A DNA stretch of 43,435 nt from Plicaturopsis crispa FD-325 SS-3 (taxonomy: Eukaryota; Basidiomycota; Agaricomycetes; Amylocorticiales; Amylocorticiaceae): contig KN832579.1 of assembly GCA_000827205.1 (NCBI GenBank), forward strand, positions 170,237 to 213,671. Direction: 5' to 3'. The position numbers and the translations under genes are program-made. The notes beneath the pieces are model-generated. The model was not told the origin of the DNA, did no database searches, and worked only from the letters and a program-made list of their open reading frames with translations. Shown in pieces: positions 1 to 43,435 of this stretch; position 1 is the first letter of the stretch; each line of letters starts with the position of its first letter.

Positions 1-579
1 AAGCCGCAGCAGTTCAGGATGTCAGGCAGATGAAGCAGGTCGTTCTCGTTAAAGCTTTATAGCCGCCAGTTTCACGTCGCGACTGATCTTTCGGAATGGC
101 ATTATAGAGTCAACGAGGCAGAGCTAAGCAGAGGAGCCGGACGACGTCCTGTAAGCTGGATTTCACTGTTTTGCGGAATTTCTATATATATCGAGAAATC
201 GCCGCGACTGCCAACCTTTCTTAAAATGGCTGTAAAGTATACGATTTCACATCCTTTCTCCCCGAAAAAAACATGCCTGTGTAGCTAGGGCAATATTGCA
301 AAGACCTGCGAAGAGACCATACAATTTGAGGTAGTGCTCGAGGTGCAAGAAAATCGGGAGTGCAGATGTTTGCAACTCCCTGTCGGTGATAGTAACGGCG
401 GCAAAGCAGACCAAAGCCGCACAGAGCCGCAGTACTGGCAGAACGATGTCCGAGCAGGACGGGGAACGAGGCTCGCGAATTCGGAGGGCTCCCACGCCAC
501 ATCAGATTACGCGTCTTGGCAACTTTTGCTTTTCCCCTCTCTCTCTCGAGTCTCAACGCTGTTGCGAACGACCACCGCT
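1..579. other. Left flank, no supported gene
   Basis: No gene can be supported here. A minus-strand open frame of about 82 codons at 247-495 has a hydrophobic, protein-like composition, but I see no recognisable domain, no splice partners and no family match. The stretch also contains the first copy of a dispersed header repeat (about 444-508), listed separately. It precedes the first hairpin unit of the array. Confidence 0.4.
444..508. repeat. Header repeat, copy 1
   Basis: The copy contains GAGCAGGACGGGGAACGAGG, CTCGCGAATTC and then CTCCCACGCCACATCAGATT. Diverged copies lie at about 2780-2850 and 4732-4799, with a weaker one near 7043-7083. They divide the hairpin array into blocks of roughly 2 kb. 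The function is unknown. Confidence 0.6.
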
Positions 580-1679
580 GTCCGCCTCCAGCAGCATTTC
601 ACGCCTACACAGTGTCAGCATCAGCAGATCCAGCGCACAATCATGCCCTGCGGTCTACTATGCTGTTGCAGAAGTTACTGCTGGAGCTTAGACTGGCCAT
701 CGTGTCTCATCGCATTCTCTCTCCATTGTTGATAGTTTCTACTCGCCCGCTATGCGATTCGGCCGCGGTGTTCGTGGAGATTGTTGCAGTGCGTGCGTTC
801 TCAATTACACTCCCTCCGCCTGGTGTCCGCTACATACGCCGCCTCCAGCACGCTCGTAAGCCTCGACATCATCATGCGTGCATGCGAGTGGGCTCTTCTG
901 CCCACTTGATCGCGCATAATTCCTGTCGTTGTGTAATGTGCTGGAACCTGCTCGGCGCTCGTGCACGCTGTCCCGATCCTGCCCCCGATCTGCCTCCCGC
1001 AGCATCTCCTTCAACACAACACGTGCAATCCCTCTTTGTCTAGCGCCGTGTCCCATGCCTCGTCCTGTCATCCTGGCAGTATACCGTCGTCGGGTGCTGG
1101 TACAGTGCCCACTCCCCGCTTTTTCATCTGCGCATCCCCGCTTTTTCCATCCGCGCATTGCTCTCACTCGGTCTCGAGACCCACACCCTCCTCCAGCAAT
1201 GCACTCCTGCTATCTCATCATTTGATCTGCGTCCATAAACAGCCTTTGGAGTATTGGTCTGATGGTGTCGCTGTGGTTTCCATTTCTGCTGGAGCGGGGT
1301 GGACGCGACCCGGGTGCGACGCTCGACTCTTTCCTTGGTTTATGCATCTGCTCTCTGCGCGATCTGTGTATTCGCTCGCTGCACGATCTTTGCATACGTT
1401 AGCTGCACGACCAACGTCTAACACCTCCGGGCCCACCTCCAGCACCTACGCACAGCAGCATATCATCGGCCGCGGCACCGCTCCCCCTCGGGCTGTAGGC
1501 CCGCGTTTGATGCTGCTTCGGGAGTTGTGCGTCGGTGCTGGACGCTGGACGCTGTGGATGAGGGCGTCGGAGACTGTAGATGACGGTGCTAGTGACTTCT
1601 CCCCGGTGCTTATTCGAAGCTCATGGCCTCGTGTTTCGCATTCCCATCTCTAGGATCGCCGCACTCTCGACTTCGCTAC

Positions 1680-1783
1680 CTCCAGCGCCGACCTGTGACA
1701 CATATCATCCGGCGCGCAGACGTCCCCGTCGGGTTCTGTTTTCGCGCCCGATGCTTTGCAGCCACTTCAGGCAAGCGCTGGAG
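1680..1783. repeat. Hairpin unit, GC-variant arms
   Basis: Outer arm CTCCAGCGC (1680-1688) pairs perfectly with GCGCTGGAG (1775-1783). The inner stem is CATC plus GGCGCG (1706-1716, one bulged C) against CGCGCC plus GATG (1743-1753, one bulged C). Close relatives at 1945-2046, 2216-2316 and 2465-2567 make a local run of four nearly identical units about 250-265 bp apart. They share the text GTTTTCGCGCCCGATG, so this sub-block amplified most recently. Confidence 0.8.
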
Positions 1784-2464
1784 CTCGCATTGGTTGCGAG
1801 CGCTTCTCGATCCCGATTCTCTTATCCCGTTTTCGCTACTCTCCGAGCACGCACTCGCCATCCTTGACGCATAGTCTCTATCTCGGACTCAATGATCGCG
1901 CGCATCGTACGCGCTGACCATTTTAGACCGTTCTCAACTACGCCGCCTCCAGCGCCTCCTCGTGGCCCCCATCATCCTGCGTGCAGACGTCCCCGTATGG
2001 TCCTGTTTTCGCGCCCGATGCTTTGGAGCCACTTCAGGCAAGCGCTGGAGCTCGCACCGGCTGCGGGTGTTCCTCGATCTTGATTCCCTGAGGTCGTATT
2101 GGCTACTCTCCGAGCCCGCACTCGCCATTCTCGGATCTGTACTCGCTATCTCGGACTCAATGGTCGCGCCCATCGTACGCACTGACCATCTAAGACCGCT
2201 CTCAACCTCGCCACCTCCAGCGCCCCCTCGTGGCCCATATCATCCGGCGCGCAGACGTTCCCGTATGGTCCTGTTTTCGCGCCCGATGCTTTTGTCGCCA
2301 TCTTAGGCACGCGCTGGAGCTCGCATTGGTTGACAGTGCTTCTCGTAGGCTCTTCCACACGGCGCTCACTATCTTATTTTCGTCCCTTTGTGTTCGGTGC
2401 CTTCTCCTTTTCAACTTCGCTGCACCCTCAACCCCGCCGCCGAGATCACCCTCAGCCCCACCAC

Positions 2465-2567
2465 CTCCAGCGCCTCCTCGTGGTCCATATCATCGGGTGT
2501 GCAGACGTTCCCGTGGGTTCTGTTTTCGCGCCCGATGTTTGCGCCCACTTTGATATAGGCGCTGGAG
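2465..2567. repeat. Hairpin unit with 10 bp outer stem
   Basis: Outer arm CTCCAGCGCC (2465-2474) pairs with GGCGCTGGAG (2558-2567), ten perfect pairs. The inner stem is CATCGGG (2491-2497) with CCCGATG (2531-2537). The neighbouring unit at 2216 instead pairs CATC-GGCGCG with CGCGCC-GATG. The left half has changed while pairing to the conserved right half is kept, which points to constraint on the fold. Confidence 0.8.
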
Positions 2568-2779
2568 CTCGTACCGGTTGCGGGTGCTTCTCGATTCTGA
2601 TACCCAGCGTAAGGGCTGTTTCCCGATTCCGTACTAGTACTGCTAATCGCCCATACTGAACCTATCCTCCAACTGACCATTTTGCACATCGCATCCTGGC
2701 CGCGCGTGCACACTCGCATTCCACCGTCTCCTCGCGTGTGATAACTTGCGACGCCTCGGTGATCGCCCGGAAAGGCAGA

Positions 2780-2850
2780 CGAACACGACGAGCATGACGC
2801 GGATGACGGGGAATGAGGCTCGTATCGGGCCTCCCACGCCACCTCAAATT
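2780..2850. repeat. Header repeat, copy 2
   Basis: It shares the core GACGGGGAATGAGGCTCG and CCTCCCACGCCACCTCAAAT with copy 1. It sits just before a run of hairpin units beginning near 2917. Confidence 0.6.
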
Positions 2851-3950
2851 TTTACTTCAACCTCGACTCCAGCTCCTTCCCTCACCGCCCCTCCACCTGC
2901 AGGCGCGCCGCGCTACCTCCAGTACATAATGCCCATGCATCCTACACCGTCTACATGCACTAGGAAACTCGTGCACGCGACGGTGTTGTTCAGTTGCATG
3001 GTTGAACTGGAGCCCGCGCGGAGCCTTCAAGCTGGAGCCCGTGCAAAGCAGTCGCTTTGGAGCACGCGTCCGTGCCATACTGCAAACCTTTTCCCTTCGC
3101 CGCTCCTCCAGCCCGTACCCCGCTCTCCGCCTGCAGGATCGACCATCCAACGACCATCAATGCGCCACCTCCAGCCCGACCGGTCACGCGTCCATGCGCA
3201 CCAGCGGCCCCGTTGGGCGTTACCTGCGCATGCGATGCTGTAGGCCATGCTCTGCCAGGCTGGAGTCCGCGCGGGGTGGTTTCTTTGCGGGTGCGATTTT
3301 ACTTACGGGGTGTCCTTGCTCTCCGCGCGCGCTCGCTGACTTTTCTCTCTAGGCATATGTACACTAGCAACACCCGTCTGCTCCGCATCACGCCCACACC
3401 CAACACCTGCACGCCGTCGTTCAGTGCATGCACACCGCCCGCTGTACGCTGTCTTTGTCGTGACGCGCTTTTGCACGCTTCCAGTCACCACGATTGGTTA
3501 TAGGTGCTGGGCACGGGTGATGCTCAGTCGTTGCGGATTCGTTCGATGCGGCTTCGTTGTTTGTCACACCTTCGTCCGGCCGTTGACTTTTTGTCGCTCG
3601 CCGCACTCTCCCTACCGCTCGCCCTGCCTCCAGCCCATGCGCTCTCTCCAGCACAACACAAGTCCCAGCGCGTACGGGCCTGTACCCCCGCACGCCGCTG
3701 CGGCACATGTGTGTGTATTGCATATTGGGATGGAGCCGGTTTAGGTGCGGGGGTTGATGTACGCTTCCTCTGGTGATAACGTGCCTACTCCCTGCGTTGT
3801 TTGTACGCACGCTATCCCCCGCTTTCCGACATAGCGCCCCGTTTCGCGCTGCGCTGCGGCGTTCTCGCGTTCCATCCCACTGCGCTGTTCTTGTGTTGCA
3901 CCCCGCTGCCCCCTACTGAGCCACCTCCTGCACCCCTTCCTCCTGGCACA

Positions 3951-3994
3951 CATCAGGCTCTACCGACTAGCGCATCAGGCTCTACCGACTAGCG
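3951..3994. repeat. 22 bp direct repeat, two copies
   Basis: The 20-base core CATCAGGCTCTACCGACTAG occurs twice in tandem. It lies between hairpin units and is probably local replication slippage. Confidence 0.7.
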
Positions 3995-4731
3995 GCCCGG
4001 CGTCCAGCACCACCGCGGCCCAGCCTCCAGCACCGCACCGGCATTGCACACCATCCATCGCGTCTACAGCCTTGTCGGGCCGGAGTTCTGCGAAGGATGC
4101 TGTAGCGGTCAAACATGCTATTCGATGTTGGAGCTCGGGGTCGCTTGTTCAAATGCGATGGACCTCTGCTGTTACTTACAGGTAGCGCGCCTGACTTTCT
4201 GACGACACAGTGCTTTCGTATTCACCGTCCGCCTCCTAGTGCTTTCTCGCCTCCAGCACCGACCGCACATTCCACACCGTTGGCTGGCCTAGGGGCGCGC
4301 CCTCGAAGCTACAAGTGGTCTCCCCACGACATACAGGTTTCTGACATCGACACATATGACTCGTCTATCGGTTTGGACTTGTCCAGGATGGCCGTGTACT
4401 TGTTCGGTACACATCTACGTTGGTCGTATACTTTCACATCCCGCGTGTCCTTGAAATTCTTCTACTTATCACACTTCACTTCCCGCTCTGCAGTGGACCG
4501 ATTGCCATTTCTTGCAATGCTTACTGATTCAAGTACGCATCGACATTTCTATCGGTGTATTTGGCGACGGTAAGGGAAGGCATACTAGTAGAGAGGACGA
4601 ACATGAACGTAGATTAGTGAAAGTGGGTACATAGAGAAGGGCGTGAAGGATGACTGTGAGCCTGGAGGAGCCGCACAGACGACAGACTTGCGACAGACGT
4701 CCTTTGAGCCAGCTCTTTGCGGTCACCGTAC

Positions 4732-4799
4732 GTGGTGAAGATGGTCCGAGCGGGACGGAACACGAGGCTCGCAAGGATGTTCCCACGCCACATCAGATC
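4732..4799. repeat. Header repeat, copy 3
   Basis: The copy reads GAGCGGGACGGAACACGAGG, then CTCGCAAGGATGTTCCCACG and CCACATCAGATC. It matches copy 1 through most of its length and again precedes a run of hairpin units (next left arm near 4968). Confidence 0.6.
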
Positions 4800-5210
4800 A
4801 TCGATTTTGCCTCTCGTCGCCTCTCGTCTTTGCTCTCTCGTCTCATCCACCGTCCATGCCACTCCGTTTTGCGTCCGATGGCCTCTGTACGTGCCCGCTA
4901 CCCAGAGTCTATCCTCGTTCCTCCCTCTGTGTTTCGCCCTCGCGGCGCGGCGTCTCATCACCCCGCCTCCAGCATCGATCTGCGGTCCACACACCAGAGG
5001 ATGAAGGGCCGGTTTCTCGACCCGTGGTTTCGTGTCCGCTGCTGTGGGGAAAGTCTGAGGTGGTGGAGCTGGCTTAGCACGCCGACGTACTTAGCTCTGC
5101 ATATGTGCCCTGCCAATCTGAGTACGCCTCTCCACTTTCTGTATTCAGTTTCCCTCTCGTCGTCTCTTTTCGGGTTTCCTTCTCGCAATACACGCACCTC
5201 GTCACCCCGC

Positions 5211-5313
5211 CTCCAACACTGGACATCAACCCGCTCATCATCAGACGCTTGCGCGGCCCTGCTGGGCTACGCGTGGGCCTCCGATGCTGGTTTCAAAGCC
5301 GTTCATGTTGGAG
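5211..5313. repeat. Hairpin unit with AACA/TGTT arm variant
   Basis: The left arm is CTCCAACA (5211-5218) and the right arm is TGTTGGAG (5306-5313). Compared with the common CTCCAGCA/TGCTGGAG pair, both arms changed so that the G-C pair became A-T. The central CCGATGCTG motif (5281-5289) is retained. Confidence 0.75.
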
Positions 5314-6988
5314 CTGGCTCGACGCTGCTGCGGTCGTCGCTCACTTCCTTTATCTTCGTCGTTCGATGTTTAATTGCGCCTTCGTCGTCGTGTGACACTT
5401 GGGCCTTCGTCTTCCCATCCTTGCGCCCTCGTCTTCCCACCACTGCGCCCTCGTCTTCCGATCACCGTGCCGCCGCCCCACCGCCTCCAGAAATGACACA
5501 AGGCTCAACATCTCGCGCACGCACGGCCCCCTTTGGCTGTGCTGTCTACGCCTAATGCTGTGGCTTTTGTTTTTTTAGTCGCGGTCGCGCGGCTCACATG
5601 TGTTGGCTGGAGCGCTTCCTTGTGTTGGCTGCTCTGTTCTTGACGTTGTCTGCATACTTCCTTGCGTCCTCTCCACCATCGTCTCGCATCTACCCTGCAC
5701 CCGTCCCGCCGCCTCCAGCACTGGGACCGGCCATATCCAGCATCTGGAATGTACGCCGCTGTACGCTGCTGTTGCATCCGATGCTTGATGCCATGCGAGC
5801 TTCTATGCTGGAGATGGCTGGGGCGAGCTGTGTGCGCGTTGCTGCTCGAGTCCTCTACACCGTCATCTCGCATTCCCGTACTCCCCTCGTGTCCCGCCGC
5901 CTCCAGCACCGAAAGACGAGATCCCATTGAGTATCCGGCATGTACGTAGCGGTAGCTGTGCTGCTGCATCCGAATGGAGTTCTTTCTTCATGTTGGAGAT
6001 GGCTGGGGCGAGTTGTGTGTGATGTCGGTTTCATGGTGCGCTTTTCCCGGGGCATTAATGCTTTTTGAGTCTTGTACACATTCCTTGTGAGTGTTGTACA
6101 CTTTACTCTGGTCATCTACACTTTCTTCACGCATTTCCGTACTGCCACCGTGCTTTTACCATGCGTATCGGCGCCTTGCTTCCACGTCCCTCCACCTGCA
6201 TCCCATCCTACCGCCTCCAACGCTTCAGGTTTCATACACCATCATCCGACGCACGCACGAGCCCGTTGGGCTCTGCTCGTGTTCGTTGTTGTTATGCAAA
6301 TCTCCGTGCTGGGGGCGTCTAGATGGGGCAGGTGGGCTTGGTGAGCCTTGCTCAGTTTTCTCTACTCAATTTCATCGGGTTTCGCTCAGTGTCATCGGAC
6401 GTTGCTCATGTTCCTCAGGCCTTTCCCAGTTTCTTCTGGCCTTCGCTATCAGCCTGCATCCCATCCTACCGCCTCCAAAACTGAGAGCTGGTACACCATC
6501 ATCTTACGCACGCACGAGCCCGTTGGGTTCTGCTCGTGTCCGTAGTTGTGATAAATACCTCGGGTTGAGGTGGCGTCTTGACTGGGCCTTGCTCAGTCAA
6601 CTCGGGGTCATGCTCACCCTCACTCGTGTGTCCTCACTCATCTGTGTGCCACTTGGTATTCTCTGGCATGCACTTTCCCCGAAATCGACACCCGACTGGC
6701 TTTCCGTGAGTAGTGGTCTCCATTTGCACTATTTCCAGGGCTAACAACGTAACTTAAACTCTTTGTTAGACCGAAGCCAGCGAGGCGTTCGCTCGACGTA
6801 GTAATGCTGCCGCCGACGCTGTCCGCCCCTGCATCAGTAGTTTTGTTTTCTCTCTGGCACGCGCTCTCAACGCTGAACTCGTACGGCTATCGATTCTCAT
6901 CGCGAAACAGTTTGGACTTTGCGATGCCAATCTGCCATCGGAGGACGGCCGGTTACCATATCCTCGTACGTTCTCCCTATAGCTTCAC

Positions 6989-7080
6989 GGTGCTCATCAT
7001 GAGCAGGTTCTATGGCGCTCATCACGAGCAGGTTCCATGGTGTTCGTTGCGAGTAGGACGGACCGTTCACACGCCACTCC
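6989..7080. repeat. 25 bp tandem repeat with palindromic core plus header-like tail
   Basis: Two full 25 bp copies (6989-7013 and 7014-7038) each contain a near-palindrome such as TGCTCATCATGAGCA. A third, decayed copy follows from 7039. The tail GAGTAGGACGGACC and CACACGCCACTCCA resembles the header repeat, suggesting a fourth, weak header. Confidence 0.5.
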
Positions 7081-7394
7081 ATACTTATAGGCGCTCGTCT
7101 CGCCAATCGATCATCGATCGTCCTTGGACTGTAACCACTACTACCTCTCCTCTATCTACGAGTGCTCTACCTGTCTGTCCTCGACCGACTATATGTCGAC
7201 GTGGCCGTTGATAGCTCAATGAAAGTGCCAACGAAGGTACTGTTCATCCTCTTAGATTGAATGCACACCGATGCGCTGATTTGTGCTCAACAGATTGCTC
7301 TAGGATATCATACAAGCTCCCGACGGTGGTATACCCCTCGTCCTTGCTCTTCGATACGGATATGCACGCCCGCTTCGCCTCGCCACGTCGCCAC

Positions 7395-7502
7395 CTCCAA
7401 CACCGAGGAGGAACACATCATCGGATGAACAGTACTAACGCCCAGCCCCGTCGGGCTGGGCGTCCGCGTCCGATGCTGTGCCATTTCTTCTTGTTGTTGG
7501 AG
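7395..7502. repeat. Hairpin unit with three stacked stems
   Basis: The outer stem is CTCCAACA (7395-7402) with TGTTGGAG (7495-7502). The middle stem is CATCGGA (7419-7425) with TCCGATG (7469-7475). The apical stem has 11 pairs, ACGCCCAGCCC (7438-7448) with GGGCTGGGCGT (7453-7463), closing a four-base CGTC loop. It is one of the best-folding units in the array. The arms carry the A-T compensatory variant also seen at 5211. Confidence 0.85.
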
Positions 7503-7738
7503 CTGGCTCGACGTCGGTTGCTCGTGCGCGATTTATATCCTCGTCTGCGTCCCCTCTCGCACGACCCTCGCCGCCTCCAGCACCGACTACCACGCGCATT
7601 GATCCGCGCTCGCGAGCACACCACCCATCTGGTTGTGCTTGCGCGTGCGATGCTGATCATACGCTGTGCTCTCGTAATCTGCTGGAGCTGGCTGAATGTC
7701 GTCGCGTTGCTCGTGAGCAAACATCCCCTCTTTGTAGT

Positions 7739-7826
7739 CGTCTCGCCTGCACTTCATCGTCCTCGCGCCTGCACTTCATCGTCCTTGCGCTTGCACTTCA
7801 TCGTCCTCGCGCTTGCACCTCATCGT
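7739..7826. repeat. 22 bp tandem repeat, about four copies
   Basis: The unit is close to TCGTCCTCGCGCCTGCACTT plus CA, repeated about four times with a few changes, immediately before the hairpin arm at 7837. A similar pyrimidine-rich tandem (GCCCTCGTCTTCCCA units) lies at about 5400-5460 before the unit at 5482. Confidence 0.75.
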
Positions 7827-7836
7827 CCCGCGCCGC

Positions 7837-7944
7837 CTCCAGCACCCAAGCTCTCGGATATCATCCCTTGCACACGCGCTCCACTAGGTGCTCGCTTATG
7901 TACGGGATGCTTTCCAATCCCACGGAGTTTCAAGGGTGCTGGAG
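7837..7944. repeat. Hairpin unit with 11 bp outer stem (subtype B)
   Basis: CTCCAGCACCC (7837-7847) pairs perfectly with GGGTGCTGGAG (7934-7944). Inner CATCCC (7862-7867) pairs with GGGATG (7904-7909). Units at 8287-8388 and 9220-9328 have the same interior (GCGCTCCACT..GG..GCTCGC then ACGGGATGC) and form subtype B. Confidence 0.85.
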
Positions 7945-8081
7945 CTGGTTTGAACTTTCGACGCGGTGGGGTGTGTTTGTCACTCAAAGCGCGCGATTTA
8001 TTTGTTCATCTGCGTCTCTTCTAATCTTTATGTACACACCCCCTCCTGCCACATCACTCGCCTCTCGCACGAGCCCACCGC

Positions 8082-8181
8082 CTCCAGCATCGACAAGTCT
8101 GCATCGCCCCGCGAGCAAACCACCCGTCTGGTTTCGCTCGTGCGCGATGCTGGTACAGGCCCCGCTGGCCGCGTGCTGGAG
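8082..8181. repeat. Hairpin unit with four stacked stems (subtype A)
   Basis: The outer stem is CTCCAGCA (8082-8089) with TGCTGGAG (8174-8181). Inside are GCATCG (8101-8106) with CGATGC (8145-8150), GCGAGC (8111-8116) with GCTCGT (8136-8141, one G-U type pair), and AAACCA (8117-8122) with TGGTTT (8129-8134), closing a CCCGTC loop. Related subtype-A units begin at 7575, 8702 and 8979. All are followed by a shared tail, GCTGGCTGAATGTCGTCG or a close variant. Confidence 0.85.
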
Positions 8182-9387
8182 CTGGCTGAATTGTCGTCGC
8201 GGTACAGTTCGTTGCTTGCTCCCTTTTTCACTACGCTCCCTCTTCTCCCTACGCTGTCCGCTCAGGCTGCGTCGTCCTCGCTCCGCCTCCAGCACGCAGA
8301 GCTCTCGGATATCATCCTTTCCAGACGCGCTCCACTAGGCGCTCGCTCCTGTACGGGATGCTTTCCCATAGAGTCTTGGGTGCTGGAGATGGCTTGAACA
8401 TCGAAGCGGTGGTAAGCTTTCTGCGACTCAAACACTCTTTGTGTTATGTTCGTTCAGTGTTTTTCCCTGCGCGTCTTGCGGTACTGTTCCCTCCTCCCTT
8501 GCCTCCCCGCCTCTAGCACAGAGAAGGACAACATCATCGGACGAGCACCGCGTTTTCAGTGTTCACGGCTGGGGCGTCCGATGCTGGGTCTTTGCTTGTG
8601 GTGTTGGAGATGGCCTGGTGGTCGGCTCGGGCGGTCTATGTGCATCTTTGCTTTCCCTCATTTTCTTTACGCTACACGCTACACGCCTCGTCCCTTACCA
8701 CCTCCAACACCAACAAAGCGCGCGCATCGCCCCCCGAGCCACCCATTCCTCTGGTTGCGCTCGCGTGTGCGATGCTGATAAACTGCACTCTTGTCGCGTG
8801 CTGGAGCTGGTTGAATTATCGTCGCGCTATAGTGCATCTAGCTCCCCTTTTTACCGCGCTCCTCTCTTCATCGCTGCGCGTCTTCGGCTCACTTACCGTG
8901 CATCTTCATTTCTGCCACGTACAACATCGTCCCCTTCACACTACGAGTACATGTCGCCTCTCGTACATCCCTCACCACCTCCAGCACCGACAAAGCGCGC
9001 GCATCGTCCCGCGAGTGACCCACCCGTCTGGTTCTGTGCTCGTGTGCGATGCTGGTACATGTAAGCTTGTCCCGTGCTGGAGCTGGCTGAATGTCGTCGC
9101 AATGCACAGTGAGCGGAGTGACTACTATACTATGCTTCCATTTTCAAAAGTTGTTCCTCTTTCTACCACGCTCCCCCTCTTCACCGCATTTCCCTCTTCT
9201 TACCGTGTCGTCCCGCCGCCTCCAGCCCACCAAGCTCTCAACCAACATCCTTTGCAGACGCGCTCCACTTGGGGCTCGCTTCCGCACGGGATGCTTTCGC
9301 ATCGCATGGAGTCTCAAGGGTGCTGGAGCTGGTTCGGACTTCGCAGCGGTAGTGAGGTTGTGCGACTCGAATCCTCCTTTTTTGCAA

Positions 9388-9515
9388 TTTATACTGCGCG
9401 TTAATATATACTGCGCGTTCATTTATACTACGCGTTAGTTCATTTATACTGCGCGTTAATCCTCCTTTCTTTGTGCACACCAACAATATGCTATCTATCT
9501 AACTACTCTAGATCT
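9388..9515. repeat. Short tandem repeat downstream of F-box gene A
   Basis: About four copies of a 17-23 bp unit containing ATTTATACTGCGCGTTA (9388-9460) mark the right edge of the hairpin array. The remaining bases to 9515 are the 3' flank of the minus-strand F-box gene, and no polyadenylation signal stands out. Confidence 0.65.
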
Positions 9516-11250
9516 CTAGGTCCCCTGGACGTGCGGTGCGGGCGTTACTTCAGGATGCGATGCGGCCTTCTTGTCCTTGAGGTAGCCCACGAGATCGAGC
9601 TCGATGCGGTCCCATTCTGCCCGCCGACAGATCCGTAAGCATTGGGAGCAGAGAATCCCAGGGAGGCGTGGTACGCACCACGATCTGTGAGCTCCCGCTC
9701 CCGCCCCCATGAATGGTCCACCTCGACGCCTGAGCTCGAGTGCCCCACCTTGACAATACTACGAAACTCCTCCTCCTCCATCCTGTCGAGCTGATCTCCG
9801 TACCCGAGGTCTACGATCTTTTGTACGATGCTACGCGTGGGTTTTTCGCATAGTAAGTGCACATGTATGATGAGGATGATGATGGTGGTGGTGGTGGGAA
9901 GAGGGAAGAGGGAAGAGGGAAGATGATGAGGATGGTGGTGGTGGGAAGAGGGAGATGATGAGGGAAGATGATGATGATGAGGAGGATGAGGAGGAGGGAA
10001 GAGGGAGAGGGACGATTGTGGCTCGGGCCCGGACTCACCCATCGAATCTACGCTCCCTAACCCTCGCCAGCTCGTGCGCACGCTTTTTCCTTTGGACACG
10101 CTCCCATAGTTTGCATTCCGCGACATGCTACATATCAGAATCAGACACGTCACACCATGAGCACCGCGACCCAGCTTCCTCGCAGAGTGACACGACCAGC
10201 TTCCTCGCAGAGCAGAGTAGAGCAGAGCGGAGTAGAGTAAAGTAGGCGCGAGACATACCACATGCAAATCCCGCATCCTTCCCTCCTCCCGCTTGACGAA
10301 CGCCTCCCTCTCTTCTCCAGGAGGCAGTGCGTCGAGCTGGCGATTAAAGCCTTCTACATCGCCAAGGAGGTATTGGCGTCGTCCATCTACATATCAACAC
10401 CAATCACCGCGTCAAGGAAAGGAGCCTCTACGGGAAGTGGATACTAGTGTGTGAAGGGCTTACGGGAATCGGGCGCGGTAGGGAGGACGTACTCCAGAGG
10501 AACGCAGAAGTAGTACGGCGCCTTGCTGTCTACGTGATACACGACTCTACAGTAACATAGCGCCGATGAAGGTAGCGTGAGTACTACTCGGACGGCAGTA
10601 TTAAGGAGAGGAGGAGGAGAAGGAGGAGGAAGGACGAACCGTTTTTCGAGGCAGGGCTGGCAGTATCGTACGCAGAACCACCAAAAGACCCTCGTCTCCC
10701 CCTCCCCCGCCGTGCCCTCACAGTCCTACGTTTTCAGAAAGTCAGCCACCCCAATCCGAACCTGCATGCATGAATATATGCAGACGCACCCCATGACATT
10801 CCCTCGAGCACATCAACCTGGCATACTGCGGCTCGTTCAGCCCAGGCGGACAGTCCGGGATGTCGGGGTAGTGCCTCTCGAACGCGGCCTTCCATGTGGA
10901 GAGCGCGGTGCGTCTGTGCAGGAGCAGAGAGCGGATGGGTTTGGATGTGCGGATGAGGCAGAGTAGGTCTTCCGGTCGTGTCCATCCGAATATCTGGCAT
11001 CCTCGTCAGGAACGGTGTGGAATGCAAGGGGTAATGGCGCACCTCGAAGAGGATCTCGACAGGCATATCCGAGAAGCCGGCGTACTTACTTGCCTCCGAG
11101 CATTCCCACTGGTGTTTTAGTATGCGGCACTGTGGCCTCCGTGACGTTACTGGCAGCACCAGACGTCTTGATGCGTTTCGTAGGGCGCGTCGATTTCGAA
11201 GCTGCCTCAGCATCAAGAGGCTGCTGCTCGCCCAAAACACAAGAAGGCAT
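9516..11250 (-). CDS. F-box protein A (inverted duplicate; 5' frame break)
   Basis: Exons on the minus strand: 11250-11043, 10993-10790, 10725-10640, 10546-10464, 10386-10259, 10127-10039, 9830-9679 and 9616-9516. Exon 1 ends in an F-box start (MPVEILFE), continued by IFGWTRPEDLLCLIRTSK in exon 2. Later exons carry Cys pairs (CSRECH, YCQPCL) and basic/acidic helices. F-box proteins bind Skp1 in SCF ubiquitin ligases; the substrate is unknown. Exons 2-8 join in frame with the same phases as gene B. Exon 1 differs: its frame from ATG 11250 meets a stop after 54 codons because of a net +1 change near 11085. Translation from the internal ATG at 11066 would still give about 288 residues including the F-box. 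The gene may therefore be functional but shortened, or a young pseudogene. Intron 6 is expanded by simple repeats. Confidence 0.75.
9862..10012. repeat. Microsatellite-like expansion inside intron 6 of F-box gene A
   Basis: The plus strand carries GATGATGGTGGTGGTGGT, repeated GGGAAGA and GATGATGATGAGGAGGA-type runs. They fill most of a 208 nt intron between exons ending at 10039 and starting at 9830. The matching intron of gene B is only 76 nt and lacks the repeat, so the expansion happened after duplication. Confidence 0.8.
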
Positions 11251-11544
11251 GTCTGCGATCACAACAGAGTATAGAGATGAAATAAAGGTGTAGAGAGTAT
11301 GTAGAGATCGGTGCGCGGAAATGTGGTGGTAGGAAGCTTCAAGAAACAAATTTGGCTGCATGCAATCGGGCCCGAGGCGCTCGGAGTTAAGGACGGCGAC
11401 GTGATGTGGGGCATTGTGCTTGATATACGCGAGACGCCCAGCTCTTTTTGTTTCTTCCAACTACGTTTCCTTGCACCAATCTCCTCCTCTCTACTACGAT
11501 ACAGCGCTTTCATTCTATCTCTATACTCCATTGTGGCCGTAGAC
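11251..11544. promoter_or_regulatory. Shared divergent promoter of the two F-box genes
   Basis: This 294 bp spacer separates the two start codons. About 45-50 bp next to each ATG are homologous in inverted orientation (ATCTCTATACTC then TTGTG then the start). The middle, about 11320-11490, appears unique. No clear TATA box is visible. The symmetric leaders show that the duplication included the 5' untranslated region. Confidence 0.6.
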
Positions 11545-13036
11545 ATGTCTTTTTGCGTTTCGGACCAGCAGCAGTCTCTCGGTAACGCAGCTTCGACATC
11601 AACACGCCCTACGAAACGTACCAAGACGGCTGGTGCTGCTAGTAACGTCACGGAGGCCACAGCTCCGCAGAAAACACCAGTACTAATGGGAATGCGAGGT
11701 GAATACGCCGCCGGGGGTTTCTTGGACATGCCAGTCGAGATCCTCTTCGAGGTGCGCCCTCCTCACCACGTCGCTTTCCGCTTTGCTCCTCCTTCCTAAC
11801 CAGGATGATTGCCAGATATTCGGGTGGGCACGACCAGAGGACCTCCTCTCCCTCACCCGCACATCCAAACCCCTCCGCTCGATTCTGCGAAACCGGCGCA
11901 CGGCACTCTCCACATGGAAATCCGCGTTCGCGAGGCACTACCCCGATATGCCGGCGTGTCCGCCTGGTATGGACGAGCCGCGGTACGCTAGGTTTATGTG
12001 CTCGAGGGAGTGTCATGGGGTGCGTCTGCGTGTATTCAGTGCACTGGGTGTAAGGCTTGGGGTGCTGATGTTGACGTTGACGTAGGAGTGTGAGGGGCTA
12101 GCGGGGGAGGGGGAGACGAGGGCGTTCTGGTACCTCCGCGTTAGGTACTGCCAGCCCTGCCTCGACAAACGGTTCGTCCTTCCCATTTCTTCATTCCGGC
12201 GTCCGCGTACTCATGTTTTGCCTCTTGGCGTCGTGTAGAGTCATCAACCGCATAGACAGCAAAGCGCCGTACTACCACTGCGTTCCTATAGAGTACGTCT
12301 TCCCTGCCGCGTCCGCCCCGTGTAAGCCCTTCACATCCCCTTCCTCCTGCATACGCTCATTTACGAGGTGATTAATATTGGTATATGTAGACAGACGACC
12401 CCAATACCTCCTCGGCGACGTAGAAAGCTTCAATCGCCAGCTCGACGAGCTTCCCCCCGGTGAGGAGAGGGATGCGTTCATCGAGCGGGAGGAGGAAAGG
12501 ATGCGTGGGTTGCACGAGGTGTGTCTTGCTTCCCTCTCCTCTGCTCTGGGAGGGTACTGATGGTGTCTCGTAGCATGTCGCAAAATGCATGAAATGGGAG
12601 CGTGAGCAGAATATGAAGCATCACGCCGAGCTGGCCAGGATTAGGGAGCGTAGATTCGACGGGTGAGCCTTCCCCACAATCTCCCCCTCCCACCACCATC
12701 ATTATCGTAGTACTGATGTGAAATCCACGGGTGGGTAGCATCGTACAGAGGATCGTAGACCTCGGGTACGGAGATGAGCTCGACAGGATGGAGTCGGAGG
12801 AGTTTCGTAGCCTTGTCAGGGTGGATGATCACTCGCGGGAGCAGGAGCTCACAGATCGCGGTGCGTACCATACTACGCCTGCCCCTTCCTGGTACCATCG
12901 CTCACGGCTTTGTCTGTCTGTCTGGCTGGCAGAATGGGACCGCATCGAACTCGATATTGTAGGCTACCTGAAGAGGAGACGGAGCGAGGAGGAGACGGAG
13001 CGAAGAGGAGACGCAGCGTGCGAGGCGGAAGCCTAA
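11545..13036 (+). CDS. F-box protein B
   Basis: Exons: 11545-11751, 11816-12019, 12086-12171, 12239-12321, 12391-12518, 12574-12662, 12739-12860 and 12933-13036, giving 340 residues. All junctions keep frame; the first intron has a CCTAACC branch site. The N-terminus has a basic stretch (RPTKRTK). The F-box at about residues 62-105 reads MPVEILFE, then IFGWARPEDLLSLTRTSK. Next come WKSAFARHYPDMPACPPG and a Cys-rich patch (CSRECH, YCQPCL), a pattern I associate with a common basidiomycete F-box family. The C-terminal half is charged and helical (REEERMRGLHE). The role is inferred as an SCF substrate receptor; no substrate-binding repeat is recognisable. It is the head-to-head partner of gene A. 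In exon 2, about 53 of 68 residues match by eye. Confidence 0.85.
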
Positions 13037-16667: not shown

Positions 16668-18059
16668 CGTGTTAGTCGTTCGTTAGTCGTAAATCGTGTT
16701 GAGGTAAATTCGAGACGAAGTGAAGTTGGAATTCAGGCAGCGTCCTGGACTTGGAGGTTTGCTTAAGTATGTCGGACGGACGGTATGACGCGGTGCGACG
16801 TCATACCGTGTACGGTGGAGGGTGGAGGGTCAAGGGTGAACTACGTTTCCTGCCTAAGTGCGAAATTATTTTTGTTTTGTTTTTCGCGCGAGGACGGTCA
16901 TAGTGATGTCAGTCTTTCCGAACAAGTCTAGTCGCAGCTCCATCCTAAAAGTCGCGATTCCTGTCACTCTACAAAGCGGGCTAAGCACGCAAAGTGAAGC
17001 GTAGACGGAGGCTAAACTCACTAGAGGATAGTGCTCCACCGAGATCGCTGCAGGACTACCGCTATGACCACTTCCAGGTCCCGTCGCGCCCCATGAAACT
17101 CGGGAGTCGACGTCAACGACGGTCGGCACGATCGTGACCTTGGATCAGGTAAGTACTTGGACTAGTCATGGCGTTTTTCGATGCTGATTAGACGGTCCAT
17201 CGACAAGACCAATATGTGCAATAGGGAATCGACGTGGACGAGGTAGTTCAAGGACTGGATCTGCAGTCAAACTCGAAGCCGCTCAGCCGACTCGTGAGCC
17301 TCGTGTTTTTGCCTATTTCCTTTTTCGTTTTGAGTTGTGCCACGTTTGCACGGATCGTCGCGTCGTTTGAGGCCTCCGAGGTCAAGAGAGGACTTAAGTG
17401 CATATACTTGCCGCATATTCGTGGACGTGGCAGTAAGTAGCAGTACGACGACTCGATTTGAACAAGGAAGCGAGAGCGAAGGAAGGACGTAGCCGATGCG
17501 AGCCTTCATTGAAGTCGTGTTTCTCCCTCGTGCAGCCATCTAGATTCTAGCTTCATCTTTTCGACCTCTTCAACTCAGACCGTCAAGGCTCGACCGCCGT
17601 GGCCACCTTTCCCCAGTTCTCCCACTGCTTTCGCGCCGCTACAGCGATTTTACAGCGATTTCACGAGCTCGTTGTATCCGACACGTCGCTTCCGCCATGG
17701 ACAGGCGTACCCAGCCGCCTTCGACTCCTCGATGGGTTTTTAGCACGACAGTAATCTGGCAGGCCAGTTTCCAGGTACGCACCCAGTACGCACTGCCCGT
17801 AGTCTCGGTCGACCTCACCTCGACCCTTGCAGCCACTCTCCGACATGCATCATTCCCAAATCGTCATGACGTTGCAACAGTGTGCTCTCCTCCGCCTCTC
17901 TCTCGTCTCTGTTTTGCGCTGGTGCAGACGCGTCTTGTTGAAATTTTTCGTGCACGCGCGTGGCTGCGAACGGTTTTGCTTGGCGGTGTATGTCGATATC
18001 TTTGCTTCCTTTCCCGTGCCCGTGGATAGCGTGCATCCCCAAGCTCTCGCGCGCTCGGG
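16668..18059. other. Gene-poor region with a possible exon remnant
   Basis: There is no supported gene. On the plus strand, about 17092-17280 reads VGTIVTLDQ, then a plausible intron (GTAAGT at 17150 to CAATAG at about 17224), then GIDVDEVVQGLDLQSNSK. This looks protein-like, but the frame has a stop just upstream and no convincing continuation downstream. It may be a fragment of a decayed gene. The 200 bp 5' of the HAM1-like gene shows no clear promoter motif. Confidence 0.35.
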
Positions 18060-18067
18060 TCCCTCGT

Positions 18068-18116
18068 CATGGATCTGCACGGTCAGCCGTTTACGCGGTG
18101 AATGTGCAGATCCATG
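18068..18116. repeat. Perfect 13 bp inverted repeat
   Basis: CATGGATCTGCAC (18068-18080) and GTGCAGATCCATG (18104-18116) are exact reverse complements separated by 23 bases. The loop holds a further short CCG/CGG match. It lies just upstream of the second hairpin array. It could be a protein-binding palindrome or an RNA hairpin; no transposon ends are visible. Confidence 0.85.
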
Positions 18117-18619
18117 GCCGATCTACTACGGTGCGCGCGACAGTGGTTAGGAGATGCTGCCATGGTGCTTCGGAATCGTATCAGCGGTTCGCGCAGTGTT
18201 TTGTAGTGTGCGCTACCGATACTCCTCCCTGCTCGTACCGACTCCCGTCCAACCACTTCCGCGCGCACAGGTGGCGGGACCATGTGTCGCCACGGGCATC
18301 CGCTCATATCAGAGCTGGGGTGCCCGTGCTGACTCATCGTCCTCTTTTTCATTTCCTGTGCGCGCGAAAGTCTGGCGAGCGTTAGCGTTCGCGGCTCATC
18401 CTCCCTTCTCTTCCACCTGACTACACCGACGTGCTCTCCGCCCATACGTCTGTCCGTGCCCGCGCACTGGATCACTGGTCACACATGCGTCTCCGGAAGG
18501 GCGGCGTGCACGATTCGTAGAGCGCTGTCCCTGGGGACTCTTGTTGTGATGCCATGATTTCGTGCGCGCTTTTGCGGACTTAGGGCTGATGTTCAATGAT
18601 CTCGGGAGTCACGCCGCAT

Positions 18620-19760
18620 GCATGTAGCCCGCGCACGGTCTTGGCCAGCCTTATGTGTCCCCTCGCAGTCGGCGCTTCCTCACGACAGCAGCTGCCGACG
18701 GGGATTCATGCGTCTTTGCGAGTTCCAAGACATCCTGCGCGGATTCACAGGCTCGGGCTTTCGACTCGGACGCAGCTCTCCCTGACTAACGATCGTTGCC
18801 TGGCGCATATGGTTCGTGCGATATTCTGTTCTAATGCCTCGCGGTCAACGATGCTCTCAGTCTGTACATCTGTTACCCGCGCACGGTCTTGGCTAGCCGC
18901 ATGTGTCCCCTCGCAGTCGGCACCTGCTCTCACTAGCAGGTGGCACCGGTGACCCGTGTTTTTGTGCGACCTGGATCTGTGCGCGCTTCTCAGTCGTAGG
19001 CTCGAGGCCTTGCTTGTCCCCGCAAACAATCTTATCCGGCGCCGATCATTGTTTTATCTCCTTGCCTTTGTCAAACGATACTCTTCAGTCGGTTGCACCC
19101 CAACGTCTGTAGCCCGCGCACGGTCCTGGCTCGCCTCCTGTGTCCCCGTGAAGGCAGCGCCTGCTCTTACCAGCAGCTGCCGCTAGGATTCATGGTGCAA
19201 CGCAAGGGATCCTGCGCGGATTCACAGGCTCGGGCTGTCGACTCGGACGCCGTGGCTTTCCCGGCCAAGTAAAACTCCGCATATTCAATGGGCTCTGGTC
19301 ATGCGGAGCTCCGGCCGGTCTCAGCTCGCATGTTGGTCTCAGCTCGCATGTTGGTCTCAGCTCGCATGTCGGTCACCCGCGCACGGTATTTGCCAGCCGC
19401 ATGTGTCCCCGTGAAGTCAGCGCCTGTACTTCTCACCAGCTGCCGATGGGGATTCATGATGTTCTGCGAAACCGTTGTGCGCGTCATTACCGTTGCACGC
19501 AGGTCGTCGACTCAGGTCTATTTCACGGAATGATCATCGTCTGGCGCGTTTTCTCGCAATCCGTTTGCCTTTCTCAACGATACCCATCGAGTTTCGCAGC
19601 CGATACGCCTATTCCCCGCGCACGGAGATCCTGGCACAACATGTGTCCCCGTGAAGGCAGTGCTTCTATAGCGACTGTCGACCGGAGTTCATGTAGACTT
19701 GCCAGGAGGTTCTGCGCGCCTTCGCAGATCGTAGGCTTGCGGACTCCACGATGGATTTGC
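18620..19760. repeat. Second tandem array, about 240 bp units with hairpins
   Basis: Five clear units begin near 18629, 18872, 19110, 19376 and 19614. Each starts with CCCGCGCACGG and continues with CATGTGTCCCC(G). A short stem-loop follows, then usually GGATTCATG, TGCGCGGATTCACAGG and CTCGGGC. Stem sequences differ but remain paired. Unit 1 has GTCGGC/GCCGAC (18668-18673/18694-18699). Unit 2 has CACCTGCT/AGCAGGTG (18921-18928/18935-18942). Unit 3 has GGCAGC/GCTGCC (19153-19158/19176-19181). Unit 5 has GGCAGT/ACTGTC (19656-19661/19674-19679). More degenerate units may precede it at about 18261 and 18465. No open frame spans the units. Confidence 0.75.
19317..19370. repeat. 18 bp tandem repeat, three copies
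   Basis: GGTCTCAGCTCGCATGTT is repeated three times almost exactly, just before the fourth unit of the 240 bp array. It is recent local slippage. Confidence 0.9.
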
Positions 19761-21960
19761 TCGTCATATACTCCTTGTCCACAATGTCTGAATTCTGCGG
19801 TGCGTTTGTGTCTGTGTCCTGAATGCAATTTGCGTAGCATGACGATCTCTCGGACCGCCCGGACAGTAGCTATACTAAGACGGTGCTTTGCCATCTCTCA
19901 ATGGCCTGGGTATTTACTACCCGCATCGTCAGTGTCTATGGCTGATACGCCTCATATCAAAGGCCCACCTGCCAGGGTGGATTCCAACGATCACCAGAGC
20001 AATTTCGGGCCTGAGTGCAGTATGTAGTTCTGCGCTACGTGTTGTCCAGTGCACGCAGAGGGACACACAAGCCTACCGAACAGTGGGCTGCCGGTCCACC
20101 TTCTTTCGCCACCGTAGGGCCCAGGACACCTTGCTGGACATATGTATGCAGGACCAAAACGATGCCGTCGGTGCATGGTGCGTATTTCAATTTCGTTTGG
20201 CCGGCGGGGTGCGCACGGTGGACGAGGTTTGGATCTGCTGGGGCATCTGTAATGCGGCGCCGGCTGTTTTCTAGCAGCAGTCGTGCCATAGTATGTCTCT
20301 CTTTGATGTATTCCGCGGTCCTGCTGAGTCCTCCATAATCGTAGCTATTGGTCGCCCCCGCCGCCGACATTCACCACGCAGAAGACTAGGTTTCGTTGTC
20401 AGTTAGGCACGGTGATGAGCGTGCATTTTCCGGAGACGGTACTAGTTCTCGGGGAGCTGTCGTCTCGTACGACCAAAAACCAGCCGTGGTATGGCCATTT
20501 CAGCACGCTGGGAAATCGGTCTACCTTCATGTGTACCCTCAGGGTGTTCAGGCAAGTGCATTTCTACATCGATACATATACATTTGTTCCTTCGTTGACG
20601 ATGCCCTATTTATATGACCGGAGAGCATTGGATCGCGGAATTTTGTCAAGCTGGGCGTCATAGCTTCAGGAATGTCGATTTTGCGTAAGTACGGTACATG
20701 CAAGGTACGAGCAACATCATGAGTTACGAAGTATACGAGGTATCACCGTATCTTGAGACCGTGACCATGGTATTATTGTTAGCACACCCAACAAAATCCG
20801 CGGCGAAACCGGATGAAACATCGGTCGTTCATTCTATGATGCATGAGCACTCGCCGGCACCGAACGCGCGAGTAGTGAAACCAAGGCGAAACATATCACA
20901 CTGACCGTCGTAAGGAGCATCCACAGGCTCGAGTGCCTAACCGCATGGTCACGGCACGGACAATGTCTTTCCCCATGCACGGGCGGCTGTGTCCCGAGCA
21001 ATTTCGAATGCGCAAACCGTTCAAACGTGGGCGTAGGAGATGCGAGGTGGCATGGCATCGGCCGCTGGGGAACGCCGATGGTTGGGAGGAAAGCGCTGAG
21101 ATCATGGCGATCTGCATATACGAAGGTGATTAGCGGTGCAGCCTGTTTCTAGGACGCACAGGGACGTACCTCGAGGACGTGCGTTCACAGGCATCGAGCG
21201 CTGGATGCAACGTTGCCGTCCATGCGTCTCCTACTTATGGTCACTGCGTGTGTGCATCCTGTTGCTGGAAACGATGCCCCAGCGATGCCCAGACAGATTT
21301 CATCTGCAGGTTGCTCATGCTTTGACGAGGTAAACAGGGAGAAGAAAAGGCTCACCGCGATAGATGAGATAGAGGCGCCCGTAAATTGCGCGCGGCAAAA
21401 GGTTGGACGCCGGAAGTCGCGATATCATTCCTTTAAACCGTTCGAAGCGGTGTTCGCAGGCGCTGTTCCGTTGCAAAAGGACATGTAAGACCGACAAACT
21501 GCGTTAGCGAGGATAAGACCAAGGCCGGAAACTTCAGATTGGGGATGGACGAGCGTTGAGATAAACAGAATGAGCGAACGATTTCGGCATCGGAGCCTCG
21601 AGTCGGATGTATTACATAATCGACTTTTACAGGCCGAGTACCGCTGGGTCGCCTCTTACTTTAAGCCTCCATCGCCGTCCTTTCTTTCGTCTTTTCTCCT
21701 CCGTCGCTGGAGTCCTTTTGCTGGTCTTTCTGCGGGACCAAATGTACCTGTAGCGTCTGGACTGCTGCTCATTACAGGTGTCGCTCGTGTCCCTGGATCC
21801 GCCAACTCTGATCAGGAACAATATCCGCCGCAACTCGTTCAGTCCAAACTAAAACCGTCATACATTACCATCGAGGCTCCTCCTATCGCTCAATTTTTCC
21901 CACCTCGTAGGCTCGTAGCTGGGTCTTTTCGCGTCGAGCTCAGCTCCGTGGACCGCTACG
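19761..21960. other. Intergenic, no gene supported
   Basis: These 2.2 kb hold only short open frames on both strands, with no conserved domain and no convincing exon chain. The last ~300 bp before 21961 are the 5' flank of the ankyrin gene and are CT-rich (about 21660-21720), as is common upstream of highly expressed fungal genes. Confidence 0.5.
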
Positions 21961-43057: not shown

Positions 43058-43435
43058 GTCTTTTTTGCTTCCCCATCATTTTTCTCCTCTTTTTCCGACC
43101 GTCTTTTGATCGTCTCCCCTCTGTTTCGCCCTATCTTTTGATCGTCTCCCCTCTTTTTCGTCCGTCTTTTGATTCTCTCCCCTCTGTTTCGCCTGATTTT
43201 TGATCCTCTCTCCTCTGTTTCGCCCGTCTTTTCATCCTGTCCCCTCTGTTCCGCCTGATTTTTGACCCTCTCCCCTCTGTTTCGCCCGTCTTTTGACCCT
43301 ATCCACTCTGTTTCGCCCGTCGTTTCATCGACCCCCTCTCTTGCGTCCGTCTTTTCATGCTCTGCCCCTGCTTCTCGCCGTTATTTCGTCCCGTCCCTTC
43401 CTTTTTCGCTCTCCTTGTATGCTCTTCCCTGTTTT
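43058..43435. repeat. 31 bp tandem minisatellite running off the window
   Basis: The unit is close to GTCTTTTGATCCTCTCCCCT plus CTGTTTCGCCC (31 bases). The regular array starts at 43101, with about 11 copies to the window edge. More degenerate copies begin at 43058 and again in the last ~100 bp. Units alternate GTCTTTTGA and GATTTTTGA openings, so a 62 bp higher-order unit may exist. The plus strand is almost purely pyrimidine. Confidence 0.9.

Follow-up and report, generated by a model that had tools for sequence, protein, structure and literature searches.

Hairpin arrays at the end of contig KN832579.1

The DNA analysed here, referred to as the window, comprises 43,435 nucleotides of the basidiomycete Plicaturopsis crispa FD-325 SS-3 and forms the final 43.4 kb (170237-213671) of the 213,671-bp contig KN832579.1 (C26). 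It contains array A, a series of 28 hairpin units of ~104 nt each on the plus strand (577-9337), as identified with a covariance model at E ≤ 1e-4. It also contains a second set of hairpins, array B, four promoter-like blocks and a HAM1-like gene at 14-16.1 kb (PF19343, PF14613). An earlier note on this sequence had counted more than 25 units with complementary ends, a count that the model bears out. The arm pairs quoted there, at 1680/1775, 5211/5306, 7395/7495, 2917/3006 (CTCCAGT/ACTGGAG) and 3169/3258, were all present. The promoter-like blocks, array B and the minus-strand arrays outside the window, described below, go beyond that note.

The covariance model (R1) was trained on 26 of the 28 window units, which therefore match by construction; the other two, A11 and A19, were found by the model. 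When run on eleven upstream stretches (C26:60237-170236), and again on four of these, the model identified a further 24 units, none of them in the training set. All lie on the minus strand, 19-53 kb upstream of the window, in two clusters (C26:117.6-122.9 kb and 144.7-151.0 kb). Between 60 and 117 kb of the contig, the model returned nothing except one match at E 4.9. The outside set consists of 23 units at E ≤ 1e-4 and one at E 0.004, which brings the number used in the statistics to 52; L030:6027, a weaker match at E 0.036, was excluded, as were three others with E near 1. The repeat run produced 71 matches, of which 20 were the same hairpins read on the opposite strand. Extents were altered by hand for two units (5476-5621, and one cut at a stretch border). 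Unit counts for this family are lower bounds, the contig having been read from 60 kb onward and in part. The 52 units fall into about ten groups, and within each group all units share one strand, which is that of the group's promoter-like block.

Anatomy of the array A hairpin

Anatomy was read off a MAFFT alignment of the 52 units, from CTCCA to TGGAG. Over this span the hairpin had a median length of 104 nt (interquartile range (IQR) 101-106, range 93-128). The basal stem is 9 bp long (CUCCAGCAC/GUGCUGGAG), and its arms, CTCCAGCAC and GTGCTGGAG, carried 1.46 and 1.29 bits per alignment column. The base is flanked by an outer clamp, with C-G in 24/26 and 16/26 units at the two best pairs. Further in, a pair of motifs, CATCATC and GATGCTG, carried 1.09 and 1.11 bits per column, compared with 0.60 for the apical part and 0.25 and 0.11 for the two segments that link the base to the inner motif. 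On the 5′ side the inner motif lies 24 nt from the base (IQR 23-24, range 18-26), with barely conserved intervening sequence, and the two inner motifs are 47 nt apart (IQR 46-48, range 37-56). The inner motifs are mismatched at their third pair, where T-C was found in 23 of the 52 units, G.T in five and a Watson-Crick pair in four.

Folding and covariation

Folding energies were expressed as z scores against dinucleotide shuffles. The 52 units folded at a mean z of -3.20, with 36 below -2 and 29 below -3, while the window spacers had a mean of -0.04 (0/22 below -2) and control 120-mers a mean of 0.02 (2/100 below -2). When folding energy was scanned in sliding windows of 120 nt, the arrays stood out weakly: in the best 2-kb bins 5-6 of 50 windows fell below z -3, compared with 2.1% overall. 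In our opinion the excess is weak because the windows are out of register with the units.

Pairing was then assessed in a sequence-only alignment of the 26 window units, with the structure named from the fold of one unit. Paired cells amounted to 83.5%, against 77.8±0.7 in shuffled alignments, and fell to 27-47% in slid registers. Paired cells changed on both sides numbered 43, where shuffling gave 19.1±3.8. Counting instead the pairs that show a double change gave a weaker result, 11 against 8.4±1.5, which was matched by 41 of 500 shuffles. With all 52 units anchored at a single column in each arm and no pairing information used, the true antidiagonal ranked first of 31 in the outer helix (mean pairing z 1.57, next 0.67) and first of 33 in the inner helix (1.49, next 0.68). 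It remained at the top with 33, 27 or 19 dissimilar representatives, with one exception: the inner, Watson-Crick-only run with 19 representatives gave a tie at rounding (0.82 and 0.82). Single pairs varied; invariant ones were uninformative, and those at offsets 9 to 13, in the mid segment, were weak (z 0.6 to 1.6).

The earlier note had claimed that the arms, including nested stems, change together, and whether this exceeds phylogenetic expectation was checked with an R-scape-like test of our own rather than R-scape itself. Two hundred structure-free alignments were simulated on a FastTree phylogeny in such a way that each column kept its composition and its number of changes. The observed mean pair z was 1.46 in the outer stem and 1.49 in the inner (nested) stem, against 0.00±0.24 and -0.01±0.25 in the simulations, that is, about 6 standard deviations above the null in both. 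The maxima among the 200 simulations were 0.68 (outer) and 0.64 (inner), and in 100 simulations the highest value on any antidiagonal was 1.06 (outer) and 1.24 (inner). The covariation claim therefore holds for both stems. The fold is under selection while the sequence drifts.

Evolution and genomic distribution

Tandem duplication is visible within groups as a 267/268-bp spacing. A minus-strand group at 146.5-147.8 kb resembles group 1 of the window (64-75% over stretches of 198-728 bases), and by this likeness the groups are paralogous. The units are nonetheless widely diverged, with 33 representatives below 65% identity among the 52. Unit-plus-spacer comparisons were made for 49 of the 52 units (1176 pairs), three being left out because their spacer was too short. 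In the 40 best of these pairs, which are not independent of one another, the hairpin was more alike than the spacer in 35 (means 0.844 versus 0.759).

Pattern searches covered the whole 33.2-Mb, 49-contig assembly. The outer-arm pattern was found at 10 places, each read on both strands and all of them on the same contig; the reversed pattern gave 2 forward and 2 reverse matches. A looser arm pattern gave 18 matches, of which 14 lay on this contig and the other four did not exceed its control count of 13. A DNA search with one of the 52 units, less sensitive than the model, returned the unit itself and three other window units, with no strong match outside the arrays.

Such a pattern of growth invites a neutral account, in which an old hairpin sequence was spread by tandem and inverted duplication and its pairing was inherited rather than selected. 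The visible tandem spacing, the likeness of the paralogous groups and the confinement of the family to one contig by the patterns tried all suit it. This account is nevertheless improbable, given the distance of the compensatory pairing from the phylogenetic null, the better conservation of the hairpin than the spacer among the best pairs, and a hairpin length that differs little between units whose sequences do differ.

Promoter-like blocks and strand-following layout

Ten promoter-like blocks of the form GGACGGGGAACGAGGCTCGC...CACGCCAC were found upstream of array A groups, in the orientation of the group, mostly with an A+T-rich box downstream of the block. Four lie in the window, the last being weaker (Table 1), and six at minus-strand groups, one of these a looser copy. 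The pattern GAGGCTC-N8-18-CACGCCAC matched eight times in the assembly, every time at an array A array and in its orientation; the reversed control matched once. Spacers of 40-350 nt, read on the promoter strand, contained 64.3% pyrimidine in the plus-strand arrays (25 spacers) and 63.6% in the minus-strand arrays (17 spacers), against a background of 50.0% in 80 kb of remaining sequence. T-runs of 4-7 are present in units and spacers, and so inside the putative transcripts. RNA polymerase III (Pol III) is stopped by T-runs of this length, which makes it the disfavoured polymerase for these arrays. Intron-like motifs on the plus strand showed no excess in the array, with 0.45 per kb versus 0.80 and 0.74.

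The strand-following layout bears on whether the arrays act as DNA. The hairpins could be inverted repeats that form cruciforms or are prone to recombination, or a cluster of terminal-inverted-repeat elements, and the restoration of Watson-Crick pairs with no G.U surplus is what DNA symmetry would give. A pyrimidine asymmetry that turns with array orientation is, however, not predicted by such a device, and the promoter-like blocks track unit orientation both ways as well. The inner motif, moreover, keeps its mismatch, the pair concerned being Watson-Crick in just four of the 52 units, and two arm patterns revealed no dispersed copies above control in 33.2 Mb, on which ground a miniature inverted-repeat transposable element or other terminal-inverted-repeat element was rejected. 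A DNA-level role is accordingly rated as quite improbable. The cruciform-forming satellite that the earlier note had offered as an alternative is disfavoured in the same way; its monomers would be expected to be homogenised, and the units are widely diverged.

By eye, a protein gene in stretch L030 (~7600-9700, plus strand) seems to start divergently beside the promoter-like block of a minus-strand array. It is possible that the gene and the array share a bidirectional promoter.

Comparison with known families

No Rfam family matched in the window at the gathering score, and at a lax threshold the best E values were 2.1 (400-9500) and 0.67 (16700-20800). The candidates named at that threshold, Sphinx_1, sR5, sR44 and MIR1437, were far under the cut-off. 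The statement in the earlier note that no named family fits is thus right for Rfam. A transfer RNA cluster was rejected, as ARAGORN found 0 tRNA genes in the window. Judged informally, the irregular start-to-start distances of the units, often not multiples of three, make a repeated protein unlikely. The promoter pattern, when used to scan viral contigs, picked out 32 stretches, none of which held a credible unit (best E 0.95). No published description of such arrays was found among the papers listed, most subscription literature lying outside the search.

A mid segment free in sequence, set in a geometry that hardly changes, resembles the guide pocket of small nucleolar RNAs (snoRNAs), and the arrays might be tandem clusters of snoRNA-type guide RNAs of a single-hairpin, H/ACA-like kind. 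We regard this as very improbable. None of ACA, AGA, CTGA or TGA occurred at a fixed place 3′ of the hairpin, the H/ACA box being present at any one of 30 offsets in at most 3/52 units (ACA) or 1/52 (AGA), and no Rfam family matched.

Array B and flanking features

Array B (18.06-19.72 kb) consists of six hairpins of ~110 nt and one short hairpin. Its stems are CGCGCA/TGCGCG (outer) and CATGTGTC/GATTCATG with a mismatch (inner). The seven segments folded at z -1.6 to -8.2. Among the six sequences a double change was seen at 2 of 26 predicted pairs, and so covariation is not shown for array B. The array A covariance model gave no match to array B, a 371-base DNA search from array B found array B itself and nothing else, and the array A promoter core is not present there. 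The distance from base to inner motif is 25 alignment columns, ~22 nt in most units, and near that of array A. Array B looks similar in build to array A, though it differs in sequence.

Other repeats were observed in the window. Beside array A, an imperfect inverted repeat at 10809-12000 (four blocks of 43-191 nt, 79-91% complementary) looks like a head-to-head duplicated gene. A purine-rich GATGAT/GGGAAGA simple repeat lies downstream of array A at 9875-10016. At 31179-31435 a 51-bp unit is repeated five times with 85% matches; 51 is a multiple of three, and the repeat perhaps encodes a repetitive protein. Near the contig end, at 43086-43369, a pyrimidine-rich 31-bp unit is repeated in tandem about nine times, and no telomere repeat was present in the last 536 bases of the contig.

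Table 1. Hairpin units and promoter-like blocks in the window
Feature	Position	Strand	Basis	Remarks
Promoter-like block 1	457..510	+	pattern	GGACGGGGAACGAGGCTCGC...CACGCCACATCAGATTA; before group 1
Hairpin unit A1	577..695	+	covariance model	group 1
Hairpin unit A2	834..955	+	covariance model	group 1
Hairpin unit A3	1182..1303	+	covariance model	group 1
Hairpin unit A4	1428..1552	+	covariance model	group 1
Hairpin unit A5	1671..1792	+	covariance model	group 1
Hairpin unit A6	1938..2059	+	covariance model	group 1
Hairpin unit A7	2206..2328	+	covariance model	group 1
Hairpin unit A8	2456..2576	+	covariance model	end of group 1
Promoter-like block 2	2804..2852	+	pattern	
Hairpin unit A9	2908..3021	+	covariance model	group 2
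Hairpin unit A10	3160..3274	+	covariance model	group 2
Hairpin unit A11	3619..3744	+	model 30.3 bits, E 2.4e-6	degenerate; outside training set
Hairpin unit A12	4016..4142	+	covariance model	end of group 2
Promoter-like block 3	4753..4801	+	pattern	
Hairpin unit A13	4958..5077	+	covariance model	group 3
Hairpin unit A14	5202..5322	+	covariance model	group 3
Hairpin unit A15	5476..5621	+	covariance model	group 3; model match to 5611, extended by us
Hairpin unit A16	5704..5822	+	covariance model	group 3
Hairpin unit A17	5892..6007	+	covariance model	group 3
Hairpin unit A18	6206..6323	+	covariance model	group 3
Hairpin unit A19	6464..6581	+	model 46.9 bits	degenerate; end of group 3; outside training set
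Promoter-like block 4	7040..7090	+		weakest; core CACGCCAC at 7070; missed by genome-wide pattern
Hairpin unit A20	7386..7511	+	covariance model	group 4
Hairpin unit A21	7566..7696	+	covariance model	group 4
Hairpin unit A22	7828..7953	+	covariance model	group 4
Hairpin unit A23	8073..8190	+	covariance model	group 4
Hairpin unit A24	8278..8397	+	covariance model	group 4
Hairpin unit A25	8502..8618	+	covariance model	group 4
Hairpin unit A26	8693..8815	+	covariance model	group 4
Hairpin unit A27	8970..9091	+	covariance model	group 4
Hairpin unit A28	9211..9337	+	covariance model	end of group 4
Array B short hairpin	18064..18118	+	fold z -7.6	long, nearly perfect stem
Array B hairpin unit 1	18258..18369	+	fold + alignment	
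Array B hairpin unit 2	18629..18741	+	fold + alignment	
Array B hairpin unit 3	18877..18984	+	fold + alignment	
Array B hairpin unit 4	19114..19220	+	fold + alignment	
Array B hairpin unit 5	19377..19482	+	fold + alignment	
Array B hairpin unit 6	19616..19722	+	fold + alignment	

Interpretation of the arrays

We consider it highly probable that these arrays, with their covarying hairpins and promoter-like blocks, form a real family. As to its nature, we give about an even chance to lineage-specific, polycistronic hairpin-RNA genes of the RNA polymerase II (Pol II) type, whose hairpins are probably Dicer substrates. Dicing of the hairpins into small RNAs is the use that we prefer, held with similarly balanced confidence. 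Each gene would start at the common promoter-like block and give one long Pol II transcript, in which ~100-nt imperfect hairpins would be strung on unstructured pyrimidine-rich linkers. The hairpin consists of the basal stem, a sequence-free and partly paired segment of ~15 nt, the conserved inner motif CAUCAUC/GAUGCUG, which lies 24 nt from the base and usually has a U.C mismatch, and an apical stem that varies. A Dicer-type RNase III would excise the hairpins to give many different small RNAs, as in a microRNA-like or hairpin RNA (hpRNA) cluster. Promoter activity, transcription, the use of Pol II, dicing and a silencing function are thus what we infer for these loci. Dicer_dimer matched at three places in the assembly and Piwi at five, of which four passed the cut-off, as domain matches only. 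With the covariation, the promoter-like blocks and the strand-following spacers, these family matches speak for the clustered structured RNA, possibly a small-RNA precursor, that the earlier note had suggested, as far as sequence goes.

Several results count against diced hairpin RNAs, or against the evidence for a conserved RNA fold. On their own, 16 of the 52 units missed z < -2. The covariation term of RNAalifold was near zero (-0.05) on the first 26-unit alignment, and the outer stem alone was found; in our opinion gaps had put the inner arms out of alignment. A generic all-column G-test with average product correction, applied to all 52 aligned units, failed to place the helix pairs at the top, and the anchored pairing statistics were adopted after this failure. 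The asymmetry between G.U and A.C was within the permutation range (outer 21 versus 20±7, inner 28 versus 36±7), and the plus-strand fold was more stable than the minus-strand fold in just 15 of the 26 window units. It follows from these last two results that the pairing data alone cannot separate RNA from DNA. The 3′ mid segment varies, the distance from the end of the inner motif to the base being 27 nt (IQR 24-28, range 20-52). Conservation is concentrated in two short paired motifs and not in a single stretch of ~21 nt, the form that conservation takes in classical microRNAs. Nor did two short arm patterns point clearly to a target elsewhere: a shared 21-mer had 3 matches on other contigs, all of them with 3 mismatches (reversed control 1), while for a 17-mer 18 were found at ≤2 mismatches (reversed control 10).

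A less likely alternative, though the one that we would consider next, is that the arrays produce a long structured non-coding RNA that is not diced. Its hairpin repeats would form a multivalent platform, a scaffold or a sponge, for an RNA- or double-stranded RNA-binding protein, which would recognise the CUCCAGCAC/GUGCUGGAG base and the mismatched CAUCAUC/GAUGCUG motif. Two short conserved motifs at a near-constant 24 nt, with free sequence between them, would suit recognition of structure plus motif, and each group has many copies. A platform of this kind, however, by itself leaves the strong diversification of the apical and mid segments and the existence of several separate groups unexplained, and it has no known protein partner.

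A more speculative extension, which we think unlikely, is a rapidly evolving, lineage-specific family of polycistronic hairpin-RNA genes whose constant basal stem and constant inner motif would serve as the molecular ruler of a dedicated processing or loading machinery. The free ~15-nt segment between them would then be a changeable guide cassette, and arrays A and B, two sequence families not linked by the searches, would have arrived at a similar design on one contig.

Relation to known systems and significance

For diced hairpin-RNA genes, the closest functional parallel to array A appears to be Drosophila hp-CG4068, an analogy of arrangement that involves no sequence comparison. In PMC10317233, hp-CG4068 is described as tandem hairpins on a common transcript, whose small interfering RNAs (siRNAs) are lost in dcr-2 mutants. 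It has 20 copies in D. melanogaster and 9 in D. simulans, the copy number shifting between species, and copies of other hpRNAs arise as linked transcription units (PMC10317233). Array A, known from its sequence alone, shares with it many hairpins in tandem and in one orientation. The two differ in that hp-CG4068 belongs to an animal and its siRNAs have been demonstrated, and also in copy number, the present family comprising 52 diverged units in about ten groups.

Fungal microRNA-like RNA (milRNA) loci form a second comparison. According to PMC9757828, small-RNA reads define them and almost all are lineage-specific; the words tandem, cluster and polycistronic were not found in its main text. 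PMC6145500 reports twenty-two candidates, with six putative milRNAs close together on one contig. Hairpin precursors more stable than shuffles, and the presence of Dicer and Argonaute family matches, are points of likeness. Unlike array A, however, the loci in the parts of PMC6145500 consulted do not include a repeat family whose copies covary and have a promoter block in common, and fungal milRNA loci rest on small-RNA reads, whereas the array was delimited by sequence criteria. Long non-coding RNAs with repeated hairpins, such as the Xist A-repeats, are a third comparison, being hairpins repeated on linkers within one transcript, but they differ in unit sequence, size and organism.

The arrays show that one genome can offer enough diverged copies to demonstrate selection on a fold without recourse to any relative, and the promoter-like signature predicts the start of each gene. 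Were the ruler extension true, this fungal locus would be a repertoire of small guide RNAs. It can now be tested directly whether clusters of hairpin-RNA genes resembling hp-CG4068 are expanding in fungi, and what these may silence.

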